64,000 nt of DNA from Planctomycetota bacterium (GTDB taxonomy: Bacteria > Planctomycetota > OFTM77): contig JAJDCO010000087.1 of NCBI GenBank assembly GCA_029260795.1, positions 81,926 through 145,925 on the forward strand, given 5' to 3'. The position numbers and the translations under genes were made by a program. This document shows positions 50,561 through 53,935 of the stretch, piece by piece. Numbering within the stretch: the first letter of the stretch is position 1; each line of letters begins with the position of its first letter. The notes below the pieces were generated by a model. The model saw only the letters and a list, made by a program, of their open reading frames with translations. It was not told the origin of the DNA and searched no databases.

Positions 50561-51664
50561 TCAAAACTGGATCACCGAGCGGATGCCGTCTTGCTTCTTC
50601 ATCAGCTCGAAGGCGTCGTTGACGTCGTCCAGAGGCATGCGATGCGAGACGAATCCGTCCAGGTCGAGCTTGCCCTGCACGTACATGTCGACGAGCTGCG
50701 GCACGTGGGTACGGCCCTTGGCGCCACCAAAGCTTCCCCCTTGCACCGTGCGTCCCGTGATCAGGAAGCGGGGAATGATCTCCAGCTTCTCGCCTTTGCC
50801 AGCCACTCCGAGCATCGTGCAGAGACCCCAGCCCATGCGGGCTGCCTCGACCGCTTGCCCCATCACGTCGACGCGTCCCGTCGCTTCGAACGTGTAGTCG
50901 GCGCCGAAGCCTTCGGTCAGGTCGAGGATCTGCTGCACCGGATCCTCGCTCGCCAGCAGCGTGTGCGTGGCGCCGTACTTCTTGGCCAGCTCGAGGCGCT
51001 GCGGAGACAGATCGACCGCGATGATGCGCTCGGCCCCTTGGAGCTTGCAGCCCAGCAGTGCGCCGAGACCGACCATGCCGGCACCGAACACGGCGCAGGT
51101 CGAGCCCTTCTGGACCTCCGCCTTCCACAGCGCCGCAGCGATTCCGGTCGTGGGGCCGCAGGCGAGGAGGCAGGTGGCTTCGAAGGATGCACTCGGGTCG
51201 ATCTTCGCCAGTGCGATCTCGGGCATCACCGTGTACTCGGCGAAGGTGCTCGTGCCCATGAAGTGGCGAATCGGCTCGCCGTTGCGTGACAGCCGCGGCG
51301 TGCCGTCGGGCAGGAATCCCTTGCCCTGCTGCTCGCGGATCTTCAGGCAGATGTTCGTCTTGCCGCTTCGACAGTGAATGCACTCGCCGCACTCGGGCGA
51401 GAACAGCGTCACGACGTGGTCGCCGACCTTCACCGACGTCACGCCGGTCCCGACCTCCTCGACCACGCCCGCGCCCTCATGGCCGAGCACGCACGGGGCA
51501 TAGCCGCTTGGATCCGCGCCGCTGGCGGTGTAGAGGTCCGTGTGACAGACGCCGCACGCCTTGACCTTCACCAGCACCTCGCCGGCCTTCGGCGGCGCGA
51601 TGTCGAGATCCTGGACGATGAGGGGCTCTCCGAACTTCTCCAGCACGGCAGCGCGCATCTCCAT
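50561..51664 (-). CDS. Zinc-dependent alcohol dehydrogenase, class III-like
   Basis: A 367-residue medium-chain dehydrogenase. Catalytic zinc ligands are Cys40 and His62 (ACGVCHTD, LGHEGAGVVE); the structural zinc Cys lie at 92, 95, 98 and 106 (CGECIHCRSGKTNIC). The Rossmann fingerprint is FGAGMVGLGALLG. HFMGTSTFAEYTV is typical of class III (S-hydroxymethyl-thiol/formaldehyde) enzymes. With the glyoxalase II-like neighbour it suggests thiol-linked aldehyde detoxification. The track starts at 51742; ATG 51664 with GGAG upstream begins the conserved core. NAD is the likely cofactor. Confidence 0.93.
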   Translation of the reverse strand: MEMRAAVLEKFGEPLIVQDLDIAPPKAGEVLVKVKACGVCHTDLYTASGADPSGYAPCVLGHEGAGVVEEVGTGVTSVKVGDHVVTLFSPECGECIHCRSGKTNICLKIREQQGKGFLPDGTPRLSRNGEPIRHFMGTSTFAEYTVMPEIALAKIDPSASFEATCLLACGPTTGIAAALWKAEVQKGSTCAVFGAGMVGLGALLGCKLQGAERIIAVDLSPQRLELAKKYGATHTLLASEDPVQQILDLTEGFGADYTFEATGRVDVMGQAVEAARMGWGLCTMLGVAGKGEKLEIIPRFLITGRTVQGGSFGGAKGRTHVPQLVDMYVQGKLDLDGFVSHRMPLDDVNDAFELMKKQDGIRSVIQF

Positions 51665-51815
51665 GAGGCGGTCTCCGGGAATCCGCTGCGGCGAATCAAT
51701 TTGTTTCGGGCTGCAGTATAGCCAGGTGTGCCCCGAGACCAACAGGCACGCGCCCGGACATCGCGGTCGCGGGGGCTCGGTGCAAACCCGCCTGGTCGGC
51801 GCCGAGGCATTGCCC

Positions 51816-51821
51816 TATAAA
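51816..51821 (+). promoter_or_regulatory. Candidate -10 hexamer for the radical SAM gene
   Basis: TATAAA stands out in a very GC-rich divergent gap of 230 bp, 79 bp before the ATG at 51895. No good -35 hexamer is seen at standard spacing, so this is weak. Confidence 0.3.
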
Positions 51822-51894
51822 GGGCGGCGCTCGTCGAGCCGCGCGGCCCGGATCGACGGACTTCGTGCTCGGCCGCTCGCCAGAGTGCCCGCTC

Positions 51895-53190
51895 ATGTCC
51901 CAGCCGACCGCCGCGCCTTCGCGCACCGCCGAGATCGATGCCGCGCTCGCCGAGCACTCCTCCTTGCCGCCCGAGGCGATCTTCAAGGAGGACCTGCTTC
52001 GGGGCGGTGTCGCGTTCAGTGAGGACGCACTGCGCATCGCTTCGGGATTCAAGCCGAAGTCGTACTTCATCTTCTCCTTCGATCTCACGCCGATCGATCA
52101 GATGGAGCAGGCCGAGAATCTGCGCGCTCCCGAGGAGATGTGCCTCATCGGCGGCCCGCGAGGGTTTCGACGCACGATCGTTTCGGTACGGGTCAATCCC
52201 GCTTCGCCTCACCGGGTCGAGCTCGTCGAAGGGCGCCTGACGCTCATGCTCGAGGGCGAGTCTGTCTGCGACGTGCAGCTTCAGGAGATCCCCGAGTACT
52301 ACCGTCGCTCGCTCGAGAACGGTCAGCCCGTCACCCAGGTCGCACCCACCATCGAGTGGGGATACCTCATCTACCTGACGGTCTACCGCAAGTGTCAGTA
52401 CTTCGGCTTCCAGGAGGAGTGCCGCTTCTGCGACATCAACGAGAACTTTCGGCAGCAGGTCGCAGCGGGCCGCCCCTACCAGACCGTCAAGCCGATCGAT
52501 CAAGTCCTCGAGGCCCTCGAGATCATCGCGAGCTCCGACAACCACGCGAAGGCCTACACGGTCACCGGCGGCAGCATCACGCGGCACCTGAAGGGTCAGC
52601 AAGAAGCTGACTTCTACGCCGACTATGTGCGTGCGATCGAGGAGCGGTTCCCGAATCGTTGGATCGGTAAGGTCGTCGCCCAGGCGTTGCCGGTGGAGGA
52701 GGCGCGTCGCTTTCACGACGCCGGTGCCCAAATCTACCACCCCAACTACGAGGTCTGGGACCCGCGCCTCTTCGCCGAGCTCTGTCCGGGCAAGGAAGCG
52801 TACGTCGGTCGAGACGAATGGATCCGACGCATCCTCGATGCGGCCGAGATCTTCCGGCCTTCGCACGTGATCCCGAACTTCGTCGCGGGCATCGAGACCG
52901 CCCTGCCCCATGGGTTCGAGACGATCGAAGCCGCGCTCGACTCCACGACCGAGGGTCTCGATTTCTTCATGAGTCGGGGGATCACGCCTCGCTTCACCGT
53001 CTGGTGCCCCGAGCCGCTCAGCGTCCTCGGGAAAGATCAGGGACCGGCTCCCCTCGCCTATCATGCGGGCCTCCTCGAGCGGTATCGGGACACGCTTCGC
53101 CACCATGGGCTGGCTCCTCCTCCCGGCTACGGCGAGGCGGGCATCGGGAACGCCGTCTTCTCGGTGAGCGCTTTCATGGACGTCCTGTGA
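51895..53190 (+). CDS. Radical SAM protein with CX8CX2C cluster motif
   Basis: A 431-residue protein (track start GTG 51865 adds ten residues). Residues about 145-400 look like a radical SAM TIM barrel: an aromatic lead-in WGYLIYLTVYRKC, then CQYFGFQEECRFCDIN, where three Cys with spacing C-x8-C-x2-C would bind the 4Fe-4S cluster. AYTVTGGSI fits the GGE-like SAM-binding strand. HDAGAQIYHPNYEVWDPRLF and HVIPNFVAGIET resemble later strands of biotin-synthase-like enzymes. The canonical spacing is C-x3-C-x2-C, so this is a divergent family; the substrate is unknown. The N-terminal 140 residues form a separate domain. No adjacent peptide substrate gene was seen. Confidence 0.82.
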   Translation: MSQPTAAPSRTAEIDAALAEHSSLPPEAIFKEDLLRGGVAFSEDALRIASGFKPKSYFIFSFDLTPIDQMEQAENLRAPEEMCLIGGPRGFRRTIVSVRVNPASPHRVELVEGRLTLMLEGESVCDVQLQEIPEYYRRSLENGQPVTQVAPTIEWGYLIYLTVYRKCQYFGFQEECRFCDINENFRQQVAAGRPYQTVKPIDQVLEALEIIASSDNHAKAYTVTGGSITRHLKGQQEADFYADYVRAIEERFPNRWIGKVVAQALPVEEARRFHDAGAQIYHPNYEVWDPRLFAELCPGKEAYVGRDEWIRRILDAAEIFRPSHVIPNFVAGIETALPHGFETIEAALDSTTEGLDFFMSRGITPRFTVWCPEPLSVLGKDQGPAPLAYHAGLLERYRDTLRHHGLAPPPGYGEAGIGNAVFSVSAFMDVL

Positions 53191-53227
53191 CGGGCCAGAG
53201 AAGCGGTGGCGAGCCCGCCTCGATGTC

Positions 53228-53935
53228 ATGAAGCGCCTCGGGATCTTCCTCGGCCTGGCACTCGTGCTCGGCGTCGTCTTCTTCCCTTTCTGGAGCGAGC
53301 CAACTCAGCCGACCGACCGAGACTTGGCCCTCGCCGTCGAGCCGCCGGGCTCGGGTTCGCACCCAAGCAGCCTCACACCGCTGGCGTCCGAAGAAGCGCC
53401 GGCGACGCACGAGAAGGCCCACGTCGAGCCTTCCGATGACGAGGGGATCCGCCCGTCACCGTCTCCTCTGCTCCTCGATTCGAGCAAGCCGCTGCCATCC
53501 CCTCGGATGGTCGCGCCCCTCGTCACCTCCGAGCTGAGCTGGGTCCAGGGTCAGGGCAACCCGCTCGAGGACCCACAGCTCAACCCCGACGGCCTCGATC
53601 TGTCGGACGACGACCAAGAAGCCTTCGCCGATCTTCGCGGCGAGCTGGCGGCCTCGGTCCATGTCGCCTTCAAGCAGGTCGAGCGAGCAGCGCTCGCGAT
53701 CGCCCGACGGCAAATCGAGACCGGCGAGTACCAAGTCCTGGCGCAAGGGGAAGAGATCACTCTTGGCCAGGATGTCCTGGGCTATGTGTTCCAGCCGCTC
53801 GACGACCATTGGAGTGCGATCGTCATACTGCGGGTGAGTGAGCCCGAGATTCGTCAGTGGTTGGACGCACTCCGCTCGCGCCAGCAGCAGGTCTTGGATC
53901 AGCTCCACCGATTCCTGAAGGAGCACGGTCGGTGA
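53228..53935 (+). CDS. Membrane-anchored or secreted protein of unknown function
   Basis: A 235-residue protein with an N-terminal hydrophobic segment (MKRLGIFLGLALVLGVVFFPF), either an anchor or an uncleaved signal. A Pro/Ser/Glu-rich low-complexity region (about 25-95) leads to a soluble C-terminal domain (about 120-235) that is helical then alpha/beta, ending in a long charged helix (EIRQWLDALRSRQQQVLDQL). I recognise no family. It begins 37 bp after the radical SAM gene, so it may share its transcript. No strong ribosome site is visible. Confidence 0.65.
   Translation: MKRLGIFLGLALVLGVVFFPFWSEPTQPTDRDLALAVEPPGSGSHPSSLTPLASEEAPATHEKAHVEPSDDEGIRPSPSPLLLDSSKPLPSPRMVAPLVTSELSWVQGQGNPLEDPQLNPDGLDLSDDDQEAFADLRGELAASVHVAFKQVERAALAIARRQIETGEYQVLAQGEEITLGQDVLGYVFQPLDDHWSAIVILRVSEPEIRQWLDALRSRQQQVLDQLHRFLKEHGR

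Follow-up and report, generated by a model that had tools for sequence, protein, structure and literature searches.

The locus and its question

What is the role of a radical SAM protein whose cluster cysteines are spaced C-x8-C-x2-C and not C-x3-C-x2-C? The question is raised by a gene of a Planctomycetota bacterium, which lies in the window analysed here (the whole stretch of 64,000 nucleotides). The original prediction described its product as a radical SAM protein with this motif and an unrecognised N-terminal domain, perhaps of a new or little-studied family. It did not give the function that comparative evidence points to, which is the futalosine-pathway step otherwise carried out by MqnE.

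Translation of the gene gave 431 amino acids with zero internal stops (Table 1). A longer opposite-strand open reading frame (51568-53229, 553 aa) was rejected as a high-GC artefact, since homologues were found only for the plus strand. Beyond the 235-aa gene there are a citrate synthase and an arginase-family gene, and no linkage to quinone synthesis was found among the genes in the window.

Table 1. Features of the radical SAM locus, in positions of the window
Feature	Position	Strand	Evidence or remark
Zinc alcohol dehydrogenase, class III-type	50561-51742	-	Upstream, divergent from the radical SAM gene
Variant radical SAM protein, NF045502 family, proposed MqnE-replacing aminofutalosine synthase	51895-53190	+	Translation, profile match, alignment, model
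N-terminal a/b domain, residues 1-150	51895-52344	+	Separate model; fold search without a similar solved structure
CQYFGFQEECRFC, C-x8-C-x2-C, Cys167/Cys176/Cys179, presumed [4Fe-4S] ligands	52393-52431	+	Alignment; b1-a1 loop of model
TGGS, residues 224-227, after barrel strand 2	52564-52575	+	Model; G225 and G226 invariant in alignment
235-aa protein, no family matches	53228-53935	+	Starts 37 bases past the stop of the radical SAM gene

Cluster motif and predicted structure

The C-x8-C-x2-C motif was invariant across about 70 orthologues, and in an alignment of 42 sequences (31-70% identical) C167, C176, F178 and C179 never varied. All clear orthologues have the motif, which by these alignments is not due to chance, and the original description of a radical SAM protein with this spacing was correct in every particular. 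Paralogues with 21-31% identity retain C-x2-C and have a first gap of x8 to x11. The same range of the first gap, with C-x2-C fixed, was seen among distant relatives, for example CEYWTIKPDRENCRFC in L002.

The AlphaFold2 model built from 42 sequences had a pLDDT of 93.6 and a pTM of 0.93. Along the model come strand 1 (158-164), the three cysteines, helix 1 (181-190), a further strand (220-225) and the TGGS motif, which we infer to correspond to the SAM-binding motif (GGE type) of radical SAM enzymes. Structure prediction was the test on which the earlier reading had been staked, and the model places the three cysteines between strand 1 and helix 1 of a partial TIM barrel (the b1-a1 loop), which is the usual cluster site of radical SAM enzymes. 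The modelled position of the cysteines in the barrel thus puts the protein in the radical SAM superfamily, and a [4Fe-4S] cluster and cleavage of SAM are predicted for it.

Foldseek search against the PDB found HydE, BioB, ThiH, LipA and PylB (E about 1e-7 to 1e-6), all by the barrel only. The likeness covers about 245-285 columns at 12-17% identity, and the N-terminal domain of the window protein is unmatched. These five enzymes have the canonical cluster spacing, unlike the window protein. Searches of the PDB sequences by phmmer and by profile, with the window protein (P0001) as query, gave nothing useful. The N-terminal domain that had not been recognised does fold confidently, as its approximately 150 residues modelled alone gave a pLDDT of about 91, and the fold search found no significant match among solved structures (best E 0.65).

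Family membership and relatives

The HMM search that had been suggested placed the window protein in NCBIfam NF045502 "variant_rSAM", with 185.2 bits over residues 31-391 against a curated cut-off of 125 bits; the alignment takes in most of the N-terminal domain. The C-xn-C-x2-C layout and much of the N-terminal region are common to both. NF045502 is a catalogued domain model without assigned function, and so the family is little studied, as had been proposed, rather than new. The model is broader than the orthologues of the window protein and also takes in paralogues, some of them from genomes with MqnE. One paralogue lies in the window genome itself (L002, G000:C56, 1213-2517, minus strand) and has 200 bits to NF045502, a C-x11-C-x2-C motif and 26% identity. 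Because paralogues like this are also found in genomes with MqnE, NF045502 probably mixes functions. In profile comparison with the paralogues most of the protein aligned, cysteines included (prob 99.9).

Pfam search gave zero matches, and the window protein had no match in phage records. The MSMEG_0568 family radical SAM protein (TIGR04043) is a distant relative (32.6 bits, E 4e-8), but the score is far under the cut-off of 303.7 bits, so that TIGR04043 is a separate family. The MqnE family TIGR03700 (SCO4494 family, cut-off 434.55 bits) did not match the window protein at E<=1. MqnE has the canonical C-x3-C-x2-C, whereas the window protein has C-x8-C-x2-C; its N-terminal domain is unlike CofH/MqnE, and comparison of the two profiles gave a weak match of the barrel (prob 87). 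What is alike in both is the radical SAM barrel, the mqnA/mqnC neighbourhood, and the proposed reaction and pathway position.

Genome scanning found 51 related loci. In a tree from a quick search only, with long branches, the bacterial orthologues formed a single group with good support and with subdivisions that mostly follow phyla, and the archaeal homologues of Metallosphaera and Thermogymnomonas fell outside it. The Metallosphaera homologues (L049, L050) are about 41% identical, with transposase-like genes nearby. This type is sporadic, in two of 59 genomes of the order, one of which has a truncated second copy (G222:C1:1349118-1349357). A quinone link in Sulfolobales was rejected because of this sporadic occurrence and because Metallosphaera is without MqnC. 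A homologue of 31% identity in a Bacillota MAG (L051) is flanked by genes for a short-chain dehydrogenase and an AMP-forming ligase; its genome has no mqn genes, and the homologue probably has another function within the wider family.

Gene neighbourhoods of orthologues

Gene-neighbourhood analysis, also suggested at the outset, covered five loci of Ktedonobacterales (L040, L041, L044, L045, L142), and each of them showed the order mqnA - gene - mqnC on one strand. In L045 mqnC is followed by an aminofutalosine-deaminase-like hydrolase, with best match NF006269 (176 bits, below the cut-off of 320). The upstream neighbour in the Chlorobiota locus L031 is futalosine-hydrolase-like (best match TIGR03664, 50.8 bits, below cut-off). 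Canonical operons, as in Streptomyces plasmid loci, have the order mqnE - ferredoxin - menaquinone biosynthesis protein - mqnC; mqnE there adjoins mqnA/mqnC, where Ktedonobacterales have the variant radical SAM gene. Outside Ktedonobacterales and one Chlorobiota contig, linkage to mqn genes within 8 kb of the gene was absent, and this includes the window. The genome G216 has a cluster mqnP-ubiX-menG-mqnL-deaminase-like-mqnC-mqnA without mqnE.

Four loci of Acidobacteria (L012, L017, L018, L047) have a P5C (L-glutamate gamma-semialdehyde) dehydrogenase gene directly downstream, and then 2-oxoacid:ferredoxin oxidoreductase-like genes. The dehydrogenase was rejected as functional partner because it is conserved only in these four related loci. 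Thermogymnomonas has an aldehyde dehydrogenase of a different kind.

Menaquinone genes in carrier genomes

Of the 34 genomes that we examined via their loci, 30 are bacterial genomes, from about seven phyla, that carry a clear orthologue. The MqnA/MqnD family (PF02621) was present in 30 of the 30, usually in two copies, and MqnC in 24; the other six are metagenome assemblies, which may be incomplete. Neither MqnE nor MenD of the classical pathway was found over cut-off in any of the 30, the window genome included. The window genome (94% complete) has mqnA, mqnC and mqnD and is without mqnE: the genes for MqnC and MqnA lie near each other on contig G000:C107, and G000:C8 encodes an MqnD-type protein. 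Carriers from Chloroflexota, Chlorobiota, Latescibacterota and deltaproteobacteria were likewise without MqnE over cut-off, as were the chromosome-level assemblies G212 and G217.

The sub-threshold MqnE matches listed for the carriers examined were MqnC, CofH beside CofG, or proteins without the cluster motif. Second MqnC/MqnE-like matches in Acidobacteria were rejected as hidden MqnE, as they are CofH next to CofG (F420). Two MqnE/CofH-like proteins without C-x3-C-x2-C adjoin mqnA/mqnC, one in the window genome (L121, G000:C107, 6341-7552, minus strand; TIGR03700 33.9 bits) and one in Chlorobiota (L122, G210:C86, 7920-9143, plus strand; 118.5 bits). They are possibly remnants or catalytically dead partners.

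Exclusion of MqnE was also seen in samples drawn without regard to the gene, many of whose genomes are incomplete. Among 199 Planctomycetota genomes, 25 had a strong orthologue, the window genome among them, and MqnE over cut-off was found in 0/25 carriers versus 87/174 non-carriers (Fisher p=2.6e-7). When only the 103 MqnC-positive genomes were counted, it was 0/11 versus 81/92 (p=3.5e-9), and by family 0/9 carrier families versus 38/71 others (p=0.0026). Among 149 Acidobacteriota genomes MqnE was found in 0/12 carriers, one of which has a truncated gene, versus 93/137 others (p=3.5e-6). The genome-level p-values are inflated by shared ancestry; the two phyla are separate tests.

Other gaps exist among the MqnC-positive Planctomycetota, since 11 of the 103 had neither MqnE over cut-off nor the variant protein; several of these 11 had MqnE matches that were partial or below threshold. 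G001, G109, G124, G140, G179 and G181 are genomes of this kind, and they are either incomplete assemblies or have a further MqnE substitute.

Streptomyces normally makes menaquinone with a chromosomal MqnE. Two linear Streptomyces plasmids (NZ_CP108387.1, L153, 14962-16332; NZ_CP108083.1, L154, 14998-16320) carry orthologues 61% identical to the window protein, away from mqn genes, so the exclusion of MqnE is not absolute. Either MqnE was lost in the plasmid-bearing strains or both enzymes coexist. Other Streptomyces plasmids (L155, L156) have an mqnE-mqnC set; that of L155 adjoins glycosyltransferase and P450 genes, in what is likely a natural-product cluster.

Proposed function and alternatives

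With MqnA, MqnC and MqnD present, one early step is missing, and it is itself a radical SAM reaction. Because carriers share a radical SAM protein where their relatives have MqnE, non-orthologous replacement is the simplest reading. So we consider it probable, from sequence comparison, that the window protein stands in for MqnE when menaquinone (vitamin K2) is made by the futalosine pathway. The direct basis is the motif, the fold, the family, the operon position in Ktedonobacterales, the presence of MqnA, MqnC and MqnD, and the absence of MqnE and MenD. The protein occurs with MqnA/MqnC/MqnD and in MqnE's place, as would an aminofutalosine synthase, with the Streptomyces plasmids as possible exceptions. 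It lies outside the MqnE family but would work like its members.

The chemistry of MqnE is radical addition to an enolpyruvyl ether, followed by rearrangement and decarboxylation. By analogy with this established enzyme, the predicted activity of the window protein is conversion of the MqnA product and SAM to aminofutalosine, and its substrate, product and radical mechanism would be as follows. Cys167, Cys176 and Cys179 would hold a [4Fe-4S] cluster, and SAM would be cleaved to a 5'-deoxyadenosyl radical. The MqnA product is 3-[(1-carboxyvinyl)oxy]benzoate, and the radical would add to its enolpyruvyl double bond; rearrangement with loss of CO2 would give aminofutalosine (6-amino-6-deoxyfutalosine), which would then be processed by a deaminase/hydrolase, MqnC and MqnD.

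It is unlikely that the window protein acts at another or an added step of the pathway, such as on a later intermediate, with the MqnE step left to a further, unrecognised enzyme. A place between mqnA and mqnC suits any pathway step, such an enzyme may exist in the few MqnC-positive genomes with neither MqnE nor the gene, and cluster-less MqnE-like proteins are beside mqnA/mqnC in two carriers; but an added step would not require the loss of MqnE, the strict absence of MqnE from carriers in two large samples is a prediction of replacement, and the sole early step missing beside MqnA, MqnC and MqnD is the radical SAM reaction. We regard it as quite improbable that the protein has an unrelated role, such as one in amino-acid catabolism, and that its pattern against MqnE is a by-product of lineage history. 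The P5C dehydrogenase of four Acidobacteria, the divergent class III-type alcohol dehydrogenase in the window, the many loci without mqn linkage and the Streptomyces plasmid copies would suit such a role, whereas the mqnA-gene-mqnC arrangement in an unrelated phylum, the MqnA/MqnD-family genes of all 30 bacterial carriers, and an exclusion that Planctomycetota and Acidobacteriota each show and that persists when families are counted speak against it.

We think it very doubtful that the enzyme turns the same precursor into some other adenosylated or rearranged compound instead of aminofutalosine. The menaquinone route would then have a third variant, which comes back to the known one at MqnC or MqnD, and the MqnE-like protein without cluster motif in the window genome and the Chlorobiota genome could be a partner of the enzyme. 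That carriers have an MqnE too divergent to detect, or missed in incomplete assemblies, is hardly credible. It is true that metagenome assemblies make up most of the carriers, that the families of MqnE, MqnC and CofH are related, and that G210 has the cluster-less MqnE-like protein at 118 bits; yet the same search in the same phyla found 87 and 93 genomes with MqnE over cut-off, with zero carriers among them, neither the 94% complete window genome nor chromosome-level G212 and G217 have it, and the listed sub-threshold matches in the carriers examined were MqnC, CofH or cluster-less proteins.

Meaning of a probable MqnE replacement

A full-text literature search, with subscription papers and preprints mostly outside its scope, found no paper naming an alternative MqnE. 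One paper proposes a replacement for MqnD, not MqnE (PMC4746308), and a recent survey assigned pathways by gene quorum, by which a missing MqnE could stay hidden (PMC13386864). What is new here is the likely function of a catalogued, function-less radical SAM family.

If replacement of MqnE is true, the NF045502-type family would gain a precise and testable function, and there would be a second, unrelated solution for a rare reaction that keeps the added 5'-deoxyadenosyl radical in the product. MqnE is a studied target in Helicobacter (PMC13280913), and the existence in nature of a non-homologous enzyme for its step would matter for narrow-spectrum inhibitors directed at MqnE. It would also mean that an apparent gap of the menaquinone pathway is closed in many Planctomycetota, Acidobacteriota, Ktedonobacterales and others, and that automated pathway calls would be corrected.
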